Part shown: one piece after another, positions 12,371 through 62,404 of the stretch
Layout of the letters: every line of letters starts with the position of its first letter
Numbering within the stretch: the first letter of the stretch is position 1
Source of the DNA: Apostichopus japonicus
Lineage: Eukaryota; Echinodermata; Holothuroidea; Aspidochirotida; Stichopodidae
Assembly: GCF_037975245.1 (NCBI RefSeq)
Contig: NC_092577.1
Span: forward strand, 16,010,013-16,074,012
Direction of reading: 5' to 3'
Length of the DNA: 64,000 nt
Made by a program: the position numbers and the translations under genes
Notes under the pieces: generated by a model
Seen by the model: the letters and a program-made list of their open reading frames with translations, nothing else
What the model was told of the DNA's origin: nothing
Database searches by the model: none

Positions 12371-13162
12371 TCAAAAACGTACAGAAGGACGACCCGCACG
12401 CAGCGAAACGAAAAACCCCTCCCCAGCACACCAGCGTCCAAAAAAGGCAGCCCCAGATAAACGGCGAAAATCGCCTTCAATCTGAAGGCGAATGTCAGAC
12501 TTCACCGCCTCCAGGACTGCCTGCCAACTGGCAAATTTCCCCCTAAAAATCAAATTACATCTATTCCGCCAAACATGTTTTTTTACAATAGAGCAAACAA
12601 AAATGATGCGGTGCAACACAGCTACCGAACAAACTGGAGGGTCTACCCGATATAAAATAAAGCCCTGCCCTACCGACCATGAACGGTCTCCCGTAACACG
12701 GTCGGTCCAGGTCTGGAACCACTCCCATAAGTTGACTACAAAGTAACAATGCCAAAAAACATGAGCAGTACTCTCTAAGCTGTCACAGCCGGTCCTAGGG
12801 CACAGTCCATCACCCAATCGCCAATGATATCTTTTTAGGTTGGTCACCAAGGCACCGTGTGCAACTCTCCATGCAAGATCACGGAGCCTGCAACCATTCA
12901 GCCTTGAATGCACCGAACGCCATACTTCTGCAGAATGACGTCCCTGGACAAAAGTTGCATTCAAGGCCTTATCCCTCAACGAACTGTGAACGAGGGCCGG
13001 CTGTGACAGGTCAACAGGGGGCAACTCAATCAGCGCGGAGCAGATGACACGCACCGCCCTGTTTGGAGTACTACTATGCGGTTCTCTGTTGCTAAACAGC
13101 GCCGGGACCCATCGACGCAGGTGCAAACCGCCCCAAAAACGTACAAAATATGAACAAGGCAA
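12371..13162 (-). pseudogene. Tx1-like ORF2 C-terminal part (zf-RVT region)
   Basis: The open frame of about 264 codons continues the reverse transcriptase cut at 17293. It contains WRVAHGALVTNLKRYHWRLG, then CPRTGCDSLESTAHVFWHC, which fits the cysteine/histidine zinc-binding domain (zf-RVT) found after the reverse transcriptase of plant and animal L1/Tx1-type LINEs, and then a Trp-rich segment with VWRNRCNLIFRG. The frame ends at about 12371 and about 160 bp of 3' region follow. It is cut off from its N-terminal half by the transposon at 13167-17290, so it cannot make the full protein. A near copy lies on the minus strand at 59680-60504. Confidence 0.85.
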
Positions 13163-15155
13163 CCCTTAGGCCATCAGCTGAAGCTCAAAATGTGGCTGTA
13201 AAATCAGTTTCGTTCCAGCAACACCGGGTCTAGACTTTTAATGCATTTTTGGGTAGTTTAATGCATCACAAACATTATATCAAAAGTTCTCCAAAAAATT
13301 TCCTGCAGTATTTTTGTAAGAAACCCTTGAAATTGGGTATGTTATGTAGACATTACGTGCTACGATGCTATGTATTAGGAACACATGTGCTAACGTTAGA
13401 TTTGGTACAGTGGTGCATACATACCACTCTTTTCTTATATGTTAAATTACGACTGATATATTTTTTTGGTATAATAGTTGGGTCAGGGTTACAAGAATGG
13501 TGGAAGAGGATTCTGGTCTAAGGGTCAGTGAGGGTTGTTTTCAGGCATTACAATTTGTGCCCCCCCCCCCCTCCATTTTCGCCAAAATGGTAAAAAATCA
13601 CATTTTCAACTTTGAAATATGAAATACAATTTTTGCACATTATAACTTAAGGGTTTTAATTATAAAAATGTACCACTTTTAATAAACTCAGATGTAATGC
13701 TTTGTAATAAATCAAATATTTTTAGATTTTCCCCCTATGTTATGAATGCATTTCGTCTGTGCATGTATGCGTAAATATACACATATAATGAAAAGTTCCT
13801 CTCCATAATTGTTACACTCCCCATCCAAACTGTTTTACAAATGCGACCCCCTCCCCCTCTACTTTACATGTAGCTAAATCCCTAGTTACAATGAGATGTA
13901 CCAATGCCCCTAGACCAGTGAGCTATTTCTTTTGTATAAATCAATATATATGTTGGCACACTAAGACGTCATGGCATATCGTAGATGTGAAATAAAGTTA
14001 TAGTCGGTATATATCCGTTACATTAGTACTCTTTCTACAGTCTTCTGCAAAACTAGGTACTTTCTCCTTGTTACTGAAACGACATGTTTATAATTCGTAT
14101 TCCTGCAAAAAGAGTTTCCAAGGGAGTTAACGTATAAAAGAAAAGATCGACAAGGTTTCGAATGGTATTTTGAATAATAATAGTTCTATATTCTACAAAT
14201 AATATGAATAATAAAGGTGAATGGTACAAATAAGTGAATAACGAAGACAGTTAACTTAAGCCCCAGATAGAAAGAAATAATGTATCTATTAAGACTGGGT
14301 CGATACACTCAATGGTGTAGTAGAGCTGGGCCTTTGCGATGATTCAAGATACAGGTTCTTCATCAAAAGGCGCGGCGCGGAATTAATAAGTGATTAAAAG
14401 TTCATCCAAGGACAGCTGACTAGTCTTAACAGTATCCACTTCAATTCACTGCATGGAAGTCAGATATGGTATGGAAAAGGGAAAGTCTATTCCGTAGTAG
14501 AGGTGAAGATAATTAGATGAAATAAAAGTCACTAAAGACTTGAATATCCTACAGTCAAAACTTGAACAGATGCACAGAACATATTAACAATATGAATAAA
14601 ACAGGTAACGAAATGTTACGGCAAACAATAAAGAACCGTGATATTGGAACAGGGTCAGGGGTGATGGTTCCCCAACAACAGTATATAAAACTTTGACTGG
14701 TTTCAGGACGCGGTATTTGCGTCATCGTCATCAGTAAATGTAGTTGTGAATATGCAAGAGGTAAAGCATGCCCATTACACCCTCCTTCCCCCTCCCCTCC
14801 CCTCTCAAAAAAAAGTGTGATTTGAAGAAAATGTGGATATTTATTAAAGGTGTCTGATAGGTAGGGTAATCTACGTAAAACTACTAATAGCTAAAATGAA
14901 TATATGAATAAGATCATGTTTTCTGGTTCCTTTAAACTCTGGGGAACAAAATAATGACAACATGACTTTGAAAAGTTAACCCTCTTCACAAACTTCAAAC
15001 TTGATTAAAATTTCAGACTAAGATATCAAGATTTAACACCATCACAGTTCATCCTCCAAATCATCTTCCCCTGCATCAACAATCTCAACATCTTCTTGGA
15101 AGTTGCTGCAATTTCTATATTTACATAGGTCTGTACACGGTAGTTGTGCATTCAT

Positions 15156-15485
15156 TCAGGAACATCTTCCTTTAAGACATTTGCCGACTCTACAGCTACT
15201 GCTGACACACTGAAGCAAAACATCTGGGTCAGGTGGCTTCGTCATCCAAGTGATTATAAGGTCATCATTTTCAAGTTTCCATCCATGTCCCTCTGGTGAG
15301 AGTGCATCAATCCTTTGCTGCAATGCCCTACTGTGAATAGCAGCCTGGTTGGTGCAGCGCTTAACATGCTGGATCAGAGCATCTTTTGTTGGTGGTAAAC
15401 TCTGCTCTGAGGAGGAGATGAACAGAACACCTTGTACCATGAAATTGGATATTTTTGAGTCTGACATTTTATGATGGGGTACCAA
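15156..15485 (-). pseudogene. Transposon protein C-terminal Cys-rich exon
   Basis: The frame of 109 codons has LPPTKDALIQHVKRCTNQAA, then EGHGWKLENDDLIITWMT, then CVSSSCRVGKCLKGRC. A block of LPPTxxALxxHxxR, GW and a closing CxC...C.GxCxxxxC cluster is the usual C-terminal signature of this Cys-rich transposon protein type (established pattern, from memory). The exon lies inside the 4.1-kb transposon in the same orientation as the N-terminal pieces. The region expected between it and 15690 was not found, so the copy is probably internally deleted. Confidence 0.55.
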
Positions 15486-15620
15486 TATAATTACAATTCA
15501 GCTAGAAATATGTTGCAAATTACTTTAATAATTTCAATGGAAAGATTAACCTGATATTGCATATCAAAGCGTTTACAGAATTTTGTAATTTTCCTTGGGG
15601 GAGGACCCCCATATTCCAAA

Positions 15621-15639
15621 AGTCCTAGATCCACCCCTG
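15621..15639 (-). repeat. hAT-type terminal inverted repeat, solitary
   Basis: The reverse complement reads CAGGGGTGGATCTAGGACT, a typical animal hAT/MITE end, and is followed by a G/C-rich stretch. No opposite end was found nearby, so this may be the remnant of a MITE that entered the 4.1-kb transposon. Confidence 0.5.
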
Positions 15640-15689
15640 AACACTCAATGAACCACACATTGGAGAGAGAGTACTTTACCTTTCAAGAT

Positions 15690-15850
15690 CTGTATGTCTT
15701 CCTTGTCAAGAATTGTATCTAGTTTCTTCAACATAGAGAGTGGTACCTCACTTCAATGGCAACACGGTCTTTTCCTCTAATATTCATAAAATCTGTGCTC
15801 ATCTTTTTTCCGCTCTGCTGCTTGTCGAAGCAATACCTTAATAAAATGAA
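15690..15850 (-). pseudogene. Transposon protein internal exon fragment (YHxxC)
   Basis: Two overlapping frames together give AAERKKDEHRFYE followed by RGKDRVAIEVRYHSLC. The pattern of a charged helix, then a DxVAxEVxYHxxC motif, matches the second conserved block I know from the same transposon-linked protein type. A frameshift separates the two halves and a stop follows the cysteine. A donor-like AAAG|GTAAAG is at about 15680. Confidence 0.4.
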
Positions 15851-16507
15851 ATAAAAAAAGCAAATTGTTTTGCATTTTCTGTTGATCAAAATGTAAGTTT
15901 GAACAAATAACAACTAAGACAATTTTATTTATATACCATGTCATCTGCTCATCTTCTATGGACAAACAAAGACACATTCAAATTTTGCAAACCAGTGTCA
16001 TGCAAAAAAGAATTAAAACAGGCTTTATTTGACAAAGTACATTATCTCTTAATGTTATGGTATAAATTATACAATGGTAGATTATATCTGTTACTAATAA
16101 TAAAGGAGACAGATACTTGTTTATTTTGGTAAAGCTAGACAGGCTGACCATAAGACCTTGCAAACCTAACCTTATTGCACCTTTGTTACACTTATTTTTC
16201 TAACTAATATAATAATCTCTATCATTCAAATAAAGGGCCACAGTAAGAAAACTATGAAGCCTGTATTTAACACTTAGGCTAGTGCCCAGATGGAGAATTT
16301 GAAACAAATTTCCGTTCCTACCACCATATAACAAAACAAATCAGATGACCATGCCACTAATTATATTATGTTCAGGTCCAACACTGTGCCCTTTGACTTG
16401 GATTATATCCCTTAAGAGCTACTGATCTTGCATTATGCAACTTCTCTTAACACTTCAACTATGCCACAGAAGTACAAGTAGAGTCGTGTAGTATGCTTAG
16501 GCTTACC

Positions 16508-16986
16508 TCCATCGAAAGTCTCTGCCTGCTGCAGCTTGTCCCATTTGCAACGCCTAGTAATGTATTGTTTCTTTTCCCACATATAATAAATTGAACAGGC
16601 AATACACCAGAGCTTCTGCTTGGTTTCCTCGATCTTTTCCGTCAATTCTTCGTTTAAAATCATATGGGGTCTCCTCTGGAACTGTCCGTTTTCTTGCAAT
16701 AATGTGCTTGCTATCAATGAACCGCCTGTAACACTTATCGTGGAACCCCATCATACTATGCTGTTGAACACACGCTTGATCGTAGTAGGCCATGGAGTAA
16801 TCAGTAGTACGGCGATATCCTGTCTCCGCCGCTGAGATTAAGCCAATCTTTAGCGCAGGAAGTAACTTTAGTCCATCGTTTATTCGTCTGTGCCTTGAAT
16901 GCTTCAAATTTTACAGATTCAATGTGCACTGAGCACTGTAGATTTCCGTGTGTCGGAGACTGACTAGCGCCCGTGGGAGCCGCCAT
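16508..16986 (-). pseudogene. Transposon protein exon 1 (N-terminal HxxCY region)
   Basis: An ATG at 16986 opens the frame MAAPTGASQSPTHGNLQCSV. It continues with a segment containing RWTKVTSCAKDWLNL, then after a frame change GFHDKCYRRFIDSKHI, and after another change KLWCIACSIYY. The exon ends at GATGGAG|GTAAGCC, a good donor at about 16508. HxxCYxxFT and CxxC elements in this order recur in large uncharacterised transposon-linked proteins of cnidarians and echinoderms, as I recall them. At least two frameshifts break it. The start codon lies in AACATGGCGGC, only 304 bp inside the transposon's right end. Confidence 0.5.
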
Positions 16987-17293
16987 GTTTGTTGTTTTCT
17001 ACAAAGATTGCACACAGAACTCATGGCTCATTGGACAATTCATATCACATGGTACAGATATCTCACTGGCGCACAACTTTTGAACGTAAAACGGCAAGTT
17101 TCTTAACATACGCAATAAAAAATATAGTTCGATCTTTCGAGCGGAATTGCAAAAAAACTGCAGGAAAGTACATGGAGAACTTTTGGATCATTAATCTTAA
17201 TTAATTTATGTATTCAATGCTGTAGAGAAATTTTAGACCCGCAGTTGCTGGAACGAAACAAGCGAATTTCGACCTTCAGCTGATGGCCTACCT

Positions 17294-19266
17294 GGGTCAG
17301 TTACCGCTACAAACAATTGCTTAAATAACAAACAAGTTAACTTACTTCCCAGATGAACCACCCCTAGTCCCCACTTCTCCAGTTTTTGGTACAATATCGC
17401 CCTCTTGACAAGCTCTGTACCACCAGACCATATGAATGAAAAAATCGCCCTCTCCAACCGCACCAGGACGCGACGCGGAATTGGGTACACCGCGCCCGGG
17501 TACCACAAGATGGGCGAAACGAAACGATTAATAACGGTGACTTTCCCCAAGATCGAAAGCCAGCGGGTGCCAAAGGTTTCGAGTCTGCTCTCAAATACCT
17601 CAGCCCTCTCGCTCCAGGTGACATCACAAGGTGCATCGTAGCCGAACCATATACCATTAATTTTGATATTCTGATCCGACCACGACGCACCGAATGGTAA
17701 GTCTCTGTATCTGCAGCTACCAAGACGAAGGCCCTTTGTCTTTTCTGGATTCAACTTCGCCCCGGTAGCTCTCTCAAAAATAGATAAATCCTGCGAGAGT
17801 GCGCGAAAGGAGCCCAGACTCGAAACAACACATGTCACGTCATCTGCATATTGAGCGCATTTCACTTTGGCACCCCCTGGCACAACGAATGGAACAAGTC
17901 TGGAGTCCCTTTTCAAAAGACGAGAGAGGGACTCGCTAAACAAAACATAAAGTAATGGAGACAGAGGGTACTCCTGGCGCACCCCCCTCTCTACGTTAAA
18001 AACCTCCGAACAAAACCCATTTACGATAACAGAACTGAAACTTTGTTCATACAAAACAGAAATCCATTTACGAAAAATTGGGTGCAACTGAAACGTCTCC
18101 AATACATTCATTAAAAAACCGCGATCCACCATGTCAAAGGCCTTCTGCTGGTCCAGAGACACCAATGCACATGGCAGATCACGCTCAATAACAAAGTCGG
18201 TCAAGTCGCGCATCAACCACAAGTTCTGCTGGATGCAATGACCCTTCACTGCACAAGTCTGGAGATCACCCACAAGACGCGGCATAGCCAGTGCAAGGCG
18301 GTTGCACAAAGCCTTAGCCAGCAACCTGTAGTCCACATTTAACAAGGTGATCGGACGCTTGTTACGGGGATCCAAGGGGTCCCCAGACTTGGGCAGCAAA
18401 GTAATCATGCCCAGACGTTGACTTTGGTTTAACAGTCCGTTTTGGAAGGCGTCCTCGAAGACGGCTCTGATGTCGGGTCCTATTATTGCCCAGAAGGTTC
18501 GGTAGAACTCCCTCGGAAGCCCGTCCGAACCCGGGGACTTGCCATTCTTCATCTTCGAAAGCGCCTTCCAAAGCTCAACAGTGGTTATTTCGCCCCCCAA
18601 AATATGATTGACATCGTGGGGAACGGTTTTTGAGATTCCCCTCAATAAATCGGCCTGTGCCGACAAGTCGACATTGCCACGCGTAAACAAACTCGAATAA
18701 TACTCTTTATATACGCGGACAATGCCGTGAGGGTCACTAACCACGGTCCCATCAGTAGCGCGCACAGACGGGACGCGTCTGTCACCTGCCGATGAGCTAA
18801 CGGACTGGTAAAACCTCAGTGAAGGGCGCTCCTCGGCTTCCACCGCTTCGACACGGGCCCTAACGCGGGCACCGTGGTACTTTTCATCGAGATAAGTCTG
18901 CAAAGCGATGACAGCCAAAGGGTCGCCAAACTTCACCTCCGCGCACAGCTTCGAGAATTTTTCTCTTCGACGCCGTGCGCGGGTCACGCAATACTGAATT
19001 GCGTAGCGTTTGATGCGCAACTTGACATCATCCCACCATTGGGATGTAGAAGCAAAGGCCGGCTTCAATGTTTGCCATCCTTTGTACCTGGTCTCGAAAC
19101 CCTGGCGGAACTCTGCCTCGCCAAAAATCCGACAGTTAAGCTTCCATAGGCCCCGCCCGATGGGGAAAATGGAAGGCAAAACAAAACGTGCTACTACAGT
19201 GTCATGGTCAGAGAGCGGACAGCTCAGCGTCTCGCAACCCGAAAATGTAAAACTTACGGGCGCATA
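17294..19266 (-). pseudogene. Tx1-like ORF2 reverse transcriptase part
   Basis: The frame continues that of the endonuclease after one in-frame TGA at about 19267-19269. Residue order after the stop: the end of the endonuclease with LSDHDTVVARF, a connector with basic RARRRREK, then the reverse transcriptase with KNGKSPGSDGLPREFY (about residue 240), LPKSGDPLDPRNKRPITLLN, LVSLDQQKAFDMVDRGFL and AQYADDVTCV (YADD at 17840-17851). It then runs to FKQLFVAVTDPG, where the 4.1-kb transposon interrupts it. The reverse transcriptase would copy the element's RNA at a nicked chromosomal site. The catalytic aspartates look intact, which suggests a fairly young copy apart from the stop and the insertion. 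Confidence 0.9.
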
Positions 19267-19890
19267 CACTCAATCTATCCTGGAGGCATCTTCTCCGTTG
19301 AGCCTCACCCACGTATATGCCGTACTACACGGGTGCATATGCCTCCAGACATCGGCTAAAAGGTGTGCCGAAGTGAATCTGTCCAGCTCTGTGATCCCAG
19401 CGTCAGGACTAGCAGACACAGAAGCCCCGAGTCTGTCAAGACCCGAGTCTGGGACACAGTTAAAGTCTCCGACCATGACACATGGTGCACTACCAGGAAC
19501 AAAGGAAGGCAGCGTGTTAAAAAATTCTCGTCTAGCAGAAGGCCGATTGGGAGCGTACACATTGCAAAGGGAGATGTTACCCTGTGGATACTTGAATAGA
19601 ATGCAAACCAATCGGCCCTCGTGATCCGTCTCCACCCTAGTGGCACAACCCGCCTGACGAGGTGACAGAAGGATGACAGTGCCACAGGATGAAGACGAAC
19701 CAAACGAAGCATGCAGCCCACCACCCCACTCATAAGCCCACAGAGGGACATCTTCTTCCAAAATATGTGTTTCTTGCAGGCAAACGCAGTCGACCTCCAT
19801 TGAAATACAATATTGGAAAATGCGACTGCGCTTGCGATGATCCCTCATGCCATTCACGTTGAAAGTAGCAACTGAAAAAGTATGGGCCAT
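19267..19890 (-). pseudogene. Tx1-like ORF2 endonuclease part
   Basis: The ATG at 19890 (MAHTFSVATFNVNGMRDHRK) is chosen because copy 2 has the same ATG at 61459. The apurinic-endonuclease-like fold is marked by NVNGMR, CVCLQETHILE, NVYAPNRPS and VMVGDFNCVPDSGLD. The ORF stops at ASRID-TGA, directly before the segment with the closing SDH motif, which continues in the same frame. The enzyme would nick target DNA for target-primed reverse transcription. The TGA removes the C-terminal catalytic His unless it is read through; the same TGA is present in copy 2. Confidence 0.85.
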
Positions 19891-58846: not shown

Positions 58847-59330
58847 GTTGGCTTTCGTGGAGTGTTTTTCGCTCTCGCTCTACATCTGATAACAGCTATT
58901 TTTTCACTGTACTGTGCTATACTTCCCGCCAGGCGGGTGTGCGCGCCAGTTCGTATATCGTTATCGTATTTTATCCAAACTGTCTTTAGTTTGTTTCTGT
59001 TACTCCTCTGTGGCCCAGCCACCTTCGGTATCATGGCATCGCGCCGTGATTCCAAAATTGTTAAGTTAACCTTCACCGGTGAACAAGCGGTTCCACCGGT
59101 GCAAGTTTTTAGTATTTTAAAGAGTAAGGGTGTTGTTGTGACTGGAGAGGTTGATGCTCTGCAAGCTCTCCAGGGTCGTAATACGTATGATGTACGTTTT
59201 ACCAGTGACTTGACCCGGCAGAAGGGTGTCACGTTGCTGAGTGGGGTTGATGGTTTGACAGTTACTCCATACGAACATTCCGTATGGGTAACTGTCATCC
59301 ACGTAGGACTAGAGGTGCGTCAGGAACTTG

Positions 59331-60610
59331 TGCTTTTTACGTGATCCGCCGTGCGGGATACAAAACGTCACGGCCAAACGGCACTACCGAACCATCCCAT
59401 TCTGACAAACGAAACTCGGTCAAAGCGAGCCAAAACAAAAACATACGCCCGCCCACCCGCAGAGACAAAACGCCCAACCCCCAACACTCAAACATCCAAA
59501 AAACTACAAAAGGACGACCCGCACGCAGCGAAACGAAAAACCCCTCCCCAGCACACCAGCGTCCAAAGAAGGCAGCCCCAGATAAACGGCGAAAATCGCC
59601 TTCAATTTGAAGGCGAATGTCAGACTTCACCGCCTCCAGGACTGCCTGCCAACTGCCAAATTTCCCCCTAAAAACCACATTACATCGATTCCGCCAAACA
59701 TTTTTTTGGACAATAGAGCAAACAAAAATGATGCGGTGCAACACAGCAACCGAACAAACTTGAGGGTCTACCCCATATAAAATAAAGCCCTGCCCTACCG
59801 ACCATGAACGGTCTCCCGTAACACGGTCGGTCCAGGTCTGGAACCACTCCCATAAGTTTACTACAAAGCAACAATGCCAAAAAACGAGCGGTACTCTCTA
59901 AGCTGTCACAGCCGGTCCTAGGGCACAGTCCATCACCCAATCGCCAATGATATCTTTTTAGGTTGGTCACCAAGGCACCGTGTGCAATTCTCCATGCGAG
60001 ATCACGGAGCCTGCAACCATTCAGCCTTGAATGCACCGAACGCCATACTTCGGCAGAATGACGTCCCTGGACAAAAGTTGCATTCAAGGCCCTATCCCGC
60101 AACAAACTGTGAATGAGGGCCGGCTGTGACATGACAACAGGGGGCAACTCAATCAGAGTGGAGCAAATGACACGCACCACCCTGTTTGGAGTACTACTAT
60201 GCGGTTCTCTGTTGCTAAACAGCGCCGGGACCCATCGACGCAGGTGCAAACCGCCCCAAAAACGTACAAAATATGAGCAAGGCAACCCTGGGTCAGTTAC
60301 CGCTACAAACAACTGCTTAAATAACAAAAAGGTCAATTTACTTCCCAGATCAACCACCCCTAACCCACCCTTTTCCAGTTTTTGGTACATTACCGCCCTT
60401 TTGACAAGCTCTGTACCGCCCGACCAAATAAATGAAAATATCGCTCTCTCCAACCGCACCAGGACGCGACGCGGAATTGGATACACCGCGCCCGGGTACC
60501 ACAAGATGGGCGAAACAAAACGATTAACTACGGTGACTTTCCCTAGGATCGAAAGCCAGCGGGTGCCAAAGGTTTCGAGCCTGCTCTCAAGTACCTCAGC
60601 CCTCTCGTTC
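59331..60610 (-). mobile_element. 5'-truncated Tx1-like LINE inserted in ORF1 of copy 2
   Basis: CAGGAACTTG at 59321-59330 and 60611-60620 is a perfect 10-bp target duplication. Copy 1 ORF1 has the single uninterrupted form TCAGGAGCTTGTCGC (minus strand, about 20575-20590). The insert is the last 1280 bp of the same LINE family in opposite orientation: the end of the reverse transcriptase, the zf-RVT region (60504-59680) and the 3' hairpin end. Truncation at the 5' end with a target duplication is the mark of target-primed reverse transcription. Confidence 0.9.
59680..60504 (-). pseudogene. Tx1-like ORF2 C-terminal part in the inserted fragment
   Basis: An open frame of 274 codons with WYPGAVYPIPRRVLVRLERA, SFIWSGGTELVKRAVMYQKL, FKQLFVAVTDPGLPCSYFV and CPRTGCDSLEST. 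A frame change in the zinc-binding part (near 59888) follows. It spans without interruption the place where the 4.1-kb transposon entered copy 1, so it serves as the empty site. It is a dead-on-arrival 5'-truncated copy. Confidence 0.85.
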
Positions 60611-61458
60611 CAGGAACTTGTCGCAAACTGTTTTAGGTCGGTTTGGGGCTGTCAAGGCTATGAAAATGTGCTCCTACGCACAGGCCCCTGGGTGTTGAAC
60701 GGGCACCGACAGGTTCGGATCGACCTCAAGCAGGACATTCCCTCCTTCCTTTTTATTGCCGGGCATAAAGCTCACGTGCGTTACCCCGGTCAGCCCCGTA
60801 CCTGCTTCAGGTGTGGAGAGACCAGACCGAGCACGAAGCCAAGGGCGGCCCGAACAAAAAGTGTGGGCGCCGCCTTCGTGTTGGGCATGATACCTCTGCT
60901 TGCCCAAGCGAAGTTGTGTGCTCACTCTGTGGGAAGGAGGGCATGTGTTCGCGCTTGTCCCTCCTCTTATGTCTTTATGACAAAGAGTGGGGGTGAAGCA
61001 AAGGCGCCAAGTTCTGGCGCACCTACTGCCTCGGAGGAAGCTCCACGCAAGGAGGGGGAACCGGGTGAGGATTCACCTTCCGCACCTGGTTCACCCTCCC
61101 CCGTAGTTGCAGACCCCAACCCCGTGCCCGCACCGAGAAAGTCTTCACCAGATTCCCCCATCAACTCGTCCAGTTCCGTCCCCAGTCCGCCGCCGGTATC
61201 GCCAGATCCGGAGACTGTCCGACGGCGACTCCGGGGACTCGGTAGTCATCGGGTCTCCGGAGGCTCTGTCTGACAGCGACTCCGGAGACTGATCGTAGAG
61301 CCCAAACGTGCCACAGGGACGAGCTGGTACGACGAGATGGGGGAACCCTCTCTAAAAAGGTCGGCCTCAAGTGACGACTCCGACGACGATATGTCGTCTA
61401 CAGCTCGCTTGAAGCTTACAGAATCGTCGTCGGCGTAGTTTTGCCTCATTGCCCTCTC

Positions 61459-62404
61459 ATGGCCTATACATTTTCAGTTGTCTTTTTCAACGTGAATGGC
61501 ATGAGGGATCATCGCAAGCGCAGTCGCATTTTCCAATATTGTATTTCAATGGAGGTCGACTGCGTTTGCCTGCAAGAAACATATTTTGGAAGATGTCCCT
61601 CTATGGGCTTATGAGTGGGGTGGTGGGCTGCATGCTTCGTTTGGTTCGTCTTCATCCTGTGGCACTGTCATCCTTCTGTCACCTCGTCAGTAGGGTTGTG
61701 CCACTAGGGTGGAGACGGATCACGACGGCCGATTGGTTTGCATTCTATTCAAGTATCCACAGGGTAACATCTCCCTTTGCAATGTGTACGCTCCCAATCG
61801 GCCTTTTGCTAGACGATAATTTTTTAACACGCTGCCTTCCTTTGTTCCTGGTAGTGCACCATGTGTCATGGTCGGAGACTAACTGTGTCCCAGACTCTGG
61901 TCTTGACAGACTCGGGGCTTCTGTGTGTGCTAGTCCTGACGCTGGGATCACAGAATTGGACAGATTCACTTCGGCACACCTTTTAGCCGATGTCTGGAGG
62001 CATATGCACCCGTGTAGTACGGTGTATACGTGGGTGAGGCCTAACGGAGATGTGCCTCCAGGATAGATTGAGTGTATGCGCCCGTAAGTTTTAAATTTTC
62101 GGGTTGCGAGACGCTCAGCTGTCCGCTTTCTGACCATGACACTGTAGTAGCACGTTTTGTTTTGCCTTCCATTTTCCCGATCGGGCGAGGCCTATGGAAT
62201 CCTAACTGTAGGATTCTTGGCGAGGCAGAGTTCCGCCAGGGTTTCGAGACCAGATACAAAGGATGGCAAACATTGAAGCCGGCCTTTGCTTCTACATCCC
62301 AATGGTGGGATGATGTCAAGTTGCGCATCAAACGCTACGCAATTCAGTATTGCGTGACCCGCGCACGGCGTCGAAGAGAAAAAATCTCGAAGCGGTGCGC
62401 GGAG
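61459..62404 (+). pseudogene. Tx1-like ORF2 endonuclease and connector, copy 2
   Basis: It starts at ATG 61459 (MAYTFSVVFFNVNGMRDHRK) and runs through CVCLQET, where small deletions change frame. Later pieces include GNISLCNVYAPNRP, TNCVPDSGLDRLGA and HLLADVWRHMHPCST. The in-frame context GGATAGATTGAGTGTATGCG at about 62061 has the same TGA as copy 1. The connector with CPLSDHDTVVARFVLPSIFP continues to RRRREK and then stops matching at 62404. Several frameshifts show it is inactive. Confidence 0.75.

Follow-up and report, generated by a model that had tools for sequence, protein, structure and literature searches.

Two questions are raised by a 64,000-nucleotide stretch of the genome of the holothurian Apostichopus japonicus (contig NC_092577.1, positions 16,010,013 to 16,074,012), here called the window, which carries a complete copy of a DNA transposon of 4,124 bp at positions 13167-17290: to which superfamily does this transposon belong, and by what protein was it moved? 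The copy is non-autonomous and internally deleted; pieces of the two ends of its gene remain and make no working protein. It is very probably a copy of an AcademX DNA transposon.

The limits of the element are given by its ends. The sequence TAGGCCATCAGCTGAAG is found exactly at both, at 13167-13183 on the plus strand and, inverted, at 17274-17290 on the minus strand. The chance expectation of this 17-mer is 0.08 with up to three mismatches, and two occurrences were seen in none of 100 shuffles. The inverted repeat of the window copy is 25 nt long at 92% identity, beyond which imperfect similarity continues over approximately 150-160 columns. An end of a sister copy has 68-72% identity to the opposite end of the window copy, and the two ends of a long relative, L014, are 73% identical over 164 columns. 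CCT is present on either side of the element as a 3-bp target-site duplication. A paralogous long interspersed nuclear element (LINE) contains the empty site, GGCAACCCTGGGTCAG, a sequence present at a single place in the window. When the flanks of the transposon are joined, they form one alignment of 1,291 columns to 59329-60614, 93.9% identical, that crosses the junction. The uninterrupted LINE paralogue at the site and the matching flanks together mean that the window element is a complete insertion. The initial annotation had described a complete transposon with inverted ends and a CCT duplication, and this is borne out by the exact 17-mers and the flanks. Its empty site within the window also stands, the intact junction having been aligned, although the position is 60281-60296 rather than the 60283-60297 given earlier.

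The LINE split by the transposon occupies 12371-13165 and 17233-19269 on the minus strand. Its right part has a reverse-transcriptase-like frame of 678 codons, named by eye. Pieces similar to the split LINE are located at 59329-60614 and 62071-62404.

The window copy is part of a large and young family. In the host genome searched (672 Mb, 35 contigs), the exact terminal 17-mer is present 232 times, 112 forward and 120 reverse, versus none for a reversed control pattern. Each element has at most two such ends, therefore the count corresponds to 116 copies or fragments as a minimum. Among the first 100 places listed there are 39 pairs less than 15 kb apart and 22 unpaired ends. Most of the pairs (33 of 39) are 4,042-4,146 bp long, the others being 1,401, 3,835, 4,591 (twice), 7,701 and 11,624 bp. 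In a search with the first 300 bp of the element, the best 40 of 267 candidates are 98-100% identical. Nine copies of the main type, the window copy among them, are mutually 97.8-99.1% identical, and L004 and L018 have 96.2-97.1% identity to the other copies compared.

An exact 3-bp duplication flanks 34 of the 35 copies checked (14 of 15 in one set and 20 of 20 in the other). The 35 comprise the window copy, L014, L018 and 32 of the 39 listed pairs, with no unpaired end included. The duplicated triplets are of varied sequence, for example CCT, CCG, TCA, CAC, GTA and ATG. It had been anticipated that copies with different duplications, or with the same ends and no protein, would speak against a link between the ends and the protein. 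The duplication is of 3 bp in all copies but one. Ends without the protein do occur, in the 1.4-kb copy L011; this is expected of deletion derivatives, and the 3-bp duplication is kept.

Two places in the family show further rearrangement. The copy L002/L003 (C11:12252772-12264395) is broken by a nested insertion resembling a long terminal repeat retroelement, named by eye, in which a frame runs for 1,394 codons or more; the break has a 5-bp overlap. L004 (C8:33933941) and a copy at C8:34895864 are about 1 Mb apart, are both 4,591 bp long and have equal scores to the LPPT piece of the protein described below; possibly they are a segmental duplication instead of two insertions.

The initial annotation had attributed to the element a spliced Cys/His-rich cargo protein. 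All of the motifs that it named are present on the minus strand of the window copy (FHDKCY, CIAC, RYHSLC, LPPTKDALIQH and a Cys cluster), but they are in broken pieces with stops and there is no open gene; the protein is not encoded by this copy, which is deleted and has a stop in common with its sisters. This in-frame stop, within the Cys cluster, is present in all seven main-type copies whose fragment was readable, L009 and L012 of the same type having no match to the search motif used. It is absent from L004 and L018. Because the stop is common to the main-type copies, the main type must have spread while unable to make the full protein. Pfam searches of the window's own protein pieces gave two weak matches at chance level and nothing useful.

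A search of the genome with the LPPT piece, in which 150 of 303 candidates were scored as matches, found long open frames among the matches. One relative, on contig C16 (L014 with L024), is an 8,354-bp element that has identical terminal 17-mers and a TAT duplication. It aligns to the window element in blocks of 83.5, 84.1 and 89.2% identity and contains an additional 5.1 kb relative to the window copy, including most of a frame of 1,164 codons, itself broken near its end by an in-frame stop. The features of the window copy and its empty site are as follows.

13164..13166: left target-site duplication, CCT.
13167..13319, plus strand: left terminal inverted repeat, 17 nt exact, 25 nt at 92%, weaker to about 13319.
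14068..14793: stretch of about 726 bp characteristic of the multi-copy 4.1-kb elements, absent from L014 (8.35 kb) and from the old copy L019.
15042..15432, minus strand: 3'-terminal remnant of the putative transposase gene, with the LPPTxxALxxH block and Cys cluster; in-frame stop at 15153-15155.
15439..15603: junction at which about 5.1 kb of L014 is missing; the segment, L014:3779-8865, covers most of the reading frame for the DUF6589-like core and nuclease.
15728..15913, minus strand: remnant of the YHxxC Cys/His module (..VAIEVRYHSLC).
16433..16998, minus strand: 5' coding remnant in several frames, with MAAPTGASQ.., FHDKCYRRF (HxxCY) and CIAC (CxxC).
17147..17290, minus strand: right terminal inverted repeat.
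17291..17293: right target-site duplication, CCT.
60281..60296, plus strand: empty site in the paralogous LINE.

The stretch of approximately 726 bp is shared by the window copy and its sisters. For this stretch 40 of 195 candidates were scored, and those whose positions were checked fall within end pairs, for example at C7:4554738, C12:11976400 and C4:18633268. With an identity of 84-89% in blocks, L014 is too distant to be the direct parent of the 4.1-kb family. No second copy of a 2.5-kb coding stretch of L014 was found in the genome (all 8 candidates scored), the other matches having 64-74% identity over at most 449 bp. A 116-aa nuclease query gave 93 matches with all 135 candidates scored; L014 is first, followed by longer matches with no more than 55% identity and by a few that are short (32-36 aa) and reach 58-69%. 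A full-length direct parent of the 4.1-kb family was not found in the assembly, in which gaps and withheld stretches limit the search.

One old deletion derivative, L019, has an open frame of 267 codons at L019:3030-3830 on the minus strand. In this frame the LPPT block and Cys-rich tail follow a CHSLCY module immediately, with neither transposase core nor nuclease. Speculatively, its product might bind the ends without cutting them and so could be a repressor.

The same type of protein is found, in long open frames, in two other families of this genome. The L020/L021 family has a frame of 1,572 codons from stop to stop, in copies 99.98% identical, with the ends TAGACTATGGGGC and TAGACGGTGGGGC and duplications of GGA and ACA. 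The L022/L023 family has a frame of 1,551 codons, likewise counted from stop to stop, in copies 99.8-99.9% identical, with the ends TAGTCAGTGGGCCG and duplications of TAG and ATG. All four copies in these two families have the 3-bp duplication. With the window family included, there are therefore three families with three end sequences, all of the form TAG...CTA with 3 bp duplicated, and one protein type. Aside from the long frame, L014, L020 and L022 have no frame longer than 181 codons between their ends. For the L014, L020 and L022 elements, the ends were also recovered automatically, in a search for termini that begin with TA next to a 3-bp duplication. No more than two 11-of-14 matches came from L017, and none from L015 or L016; with the reversed control there was a single 11-of-14 match in the L022 element and another in L016. 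In the surroundings of the long Academ-type L023 element (C8:36034700-36046200; L023, L027), a 36-bp segment recurs approximately every 245 bp to the right and is present twice to the left in the opposite orientation.

An alignment of eight sequences (A1) gives the architecture of the protein. N-terminal Cys/His modules are followed by a core with DNxD, DQxxY and DxxxE motifs, then by a region with VDG, VTDxYP..SIKxxERxRR, HEEADTR, SPDTDV and TGCDSxSxFxGKGK, and finally by the LPPT block and the Cys-rich tail. The long frames scanned with Pfam came from L014-L017, L020, L022, L029, L106 and L107. On the Cys-rich tail, Tesmin/TSO1 CXC is identified above the cut-off in L015 (E 1.8e-5) and L016 (E 3.3e-7) and below it in L107; it was not found in L020, L022, L029 or L106. 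No known transposase domain was identified by Pfam in these frames.

The core has a weak match to Pfam DUF6589 (PF20231) in five of seven members, the best with E 0.0017. The likeness is thus that the long proteins have a core to which this profile can be matched, weakly in the families with proven ends; the difference is that those families score below the Pfam cut-off, and Pfam assigns the domain no function. Nine places in this genome are matched by the model, eight of them above its cut-off; 14 control genomes gave no match. Two of the nine are L106 (1,882 codons, E 1.4e-14) and L107 (1,822 codons, E 8e-6), the latter scoring 25.2 bits in the frame scan, where the cut-off is 27, and 29.5 bits in the genome-wide model search. 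Both have the nuclease motifs of the long proteins and the Cys-rich tail. The N-terminal part of L106 (C2:21639300-21646700) and L107 (C13:2868500-2876000) differs from that of the other long proteins, and they are perhaps a second lineage. A candidate Asp-Asp-Glu (DDE) triad, D471-D637-E883 in L020 numbering, is kept in an eight-row alignment (A4) except in two rows, L015 being cut at the first triad position and L030 shifted by one at the last. From these features we infer that DUF6589 may be the transposase core. A limited literature search found no occurrence of the word DUF6589, and A4 compared against viral contigs gave three pattern matches and no relative.

The nuclease of AcademX is of the XPG type. 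An XPG-like nuclease, to which the initial annotation had looked for support of its Academ guess, was found by hhalign in the longer relatives. The alignment of this region contains 21 sequences, for which 13 of 20 extra loci were entered, five of the 13 with in-frame stops written as X; seven were dropped for falling below length or score limits (L037, L040, L044, L047, L050, L051 and L052). Counted where a letter is present, the acidic residues are D24 (16/16), D69 (17/18), E170 (20/20), E171 (20/21), D173 (20/21), D197 (21/21), D199 (19/20) and D256 (20/21). Their order and rough spacing are those of the FEN1 active site, the acids of which are D34, D86, E158, E160, D179, D181 and D233. The FEN1 alignment was made from 21 of 53 archaeal FEN1 loci, chosen for spread, and one human FEN1 sequence; stops in L077, L087 and L096 were written as X. 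When the two alignments are compared by hhalign, D69, E171, D197, D199 and D256 fall on D86, E160, D179, D181 and D233 of FEN1, and the score is 47.9 (Prob 83.9, P 7.7e-6). This score was reached by none of 200 column shuffles (mean 15.8, sd 2.9, maximum 27.7); reversed profiles scored 18.6 and 17.9, and five slices of the neighbouring domain no more than 17.0.

According to a 2023 paper, duplications are 9-10 bp in AcademH and 3-4 bp in AcademX, seemingly related to the helicase and the nuclease, respectively (PMC10045372). Filing of the window element under AcademX follows from its 3-bp duplications and the nuclease, both AcademX traits in that paper. The Academ guess of the initial annotation is thereby supported by the XPG/FEN1-like nuclease of the longer relatives and by the duplications of the window family. 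Terminal inverted repeats are a further likeness to AcademX, as is the large size of the protein, which combines a nuclease with a core probably of DDE type. None of the differences is excluding: the window copy is deleted and non-coding, so the nuclease is found in its longer relatives and is missing from it, and the copy has an end sequence and a family of its own. AcademH belongs to the same superfamily according to the literature, but is described with a helicase and 9-10 bp duplications (PMC10045372), in contrast to 3 bp here; no helicase was among the Pfam matches of the frames scanned. Academ elements are frequent in bivalves and rare in other molluscs (PMC10294476). The element is a further member of AcademX and nothing categorically new.

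Several points weigh against this classification. The assignment to AcademX, given above as very probable, is by described traits rather than by likeness to curated Academ proteins. The one exception to the 3-bp duplication, L002/L003, has unequal flanks, CCA and TTT, with the nested retroelement inside; perhaps these outer flanks are due to rearrangement. The DDE triad is a candidate read from the alignment. In the nuclease comparison, E170 is separated from FEN1 E158 by one column at a gap, D24 meets FEN1 D34 only in the global and relaxed hhalign runs, and L106 and L107 carry Glu in place of the first Asp. A HMMER profile of eight nuclease-region sequences had no match in the PDB at E<=10, and the Pfam XPG model was absent in eight members, which had only weak unrelated matches (best E 0.0043). 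The XPG assignment therefore rests on profile-profile comparison and motif order, and the homology is remote.

It is improbable that the element represents a separate superfamily that works like AcademX, with a DDE core, an XPG-like nuclease, 3-bp duplications and TAG...CTA ends, but is not related to it by descent. Such a reading would fit a likeness to AcademX drawn from descriptions rather than from a match to a curated Academ protein, and a core to which Pfam gives no function and whose name was not found in the literature searched. It is opposed by the presence of both AcademX traits that PMC10045372 gives. No third trait that would distinguish such a superfamily was found.

PIF/Harbinger elements have 3-bp duplications of the TWA type and a Harbinger DDE. 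This candidate was rejected, since the triplets here (CCT, CCG, TCA, CAC and others) are not of that type and no such Pfam domain was found in the scanned frames. That another 3-bp superfamily, PIF/Harbinger or Zator, is involved and the Cys-rich protein is a captured passenger is highly unlikely, for although the duplication length alone fits both, the duplicated sequences are many, one protein type is present within three families that differ in their ends and share TAG..CTA and 3 bp, the long frames have no known transposase domain by Pfam, and L014, L020 and L022 offer no second frame of more than 181 codons. The 3-bp duplication of Zator, a length that fits the window family, is taken from PMC10045372. 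Zator elements have a DDE transposase of their own. Kolobok was also rejected, its duplication being TTAA (PMC9587614) and those here being of 3 bp.

The window copy has inserted with a 3-bp duplication and belongs to a derivative that spread without a working gene. In the preferred reading, a complete AcademX protein that recognises the TAGGCC ends would have mobilised it in trans. DNA binding would probably be the task of the Cys/His modules or the Cys-rich tail, the DDE-type core would cut and join, and the XPG/FEN1-like nuclease may be used for second-strand cleavage or flap trimming, with insertion at staggered target cuts producing the 3-bp duplications. The protein possibly came from a parent that is absent from this assembly. 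As a tentative proposal, somewhat more doubtful than not, there has been a recent spread of many closely similar AcademX deletion derivatives without a full-length parent in the assembly, through a lost or polymorphic parent or the enzyme of a diverged relative with the same ends, and at the same time DUF6589 is the AcademX transposase core, fused to an XPG/FEN1-like nuclease and Cys-rich tail, with the nuclease, as a second catalytic part, setting the short duplication.

These results provide an explicit chain from the DUF6589-like core, nuclease, LPPT block and Cys-rich tail to complete ends with 3-bp duplications. Such a chain from protein to ends would help to prevent these frames from being mistaken for genes of the host. 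The chain also renders testable the suggestion in PMC10045372 that the 3-4 bp duplications of AcademX, as opposed to the 9-10 bp of AcademH, are connected with the AcademX nuclease.

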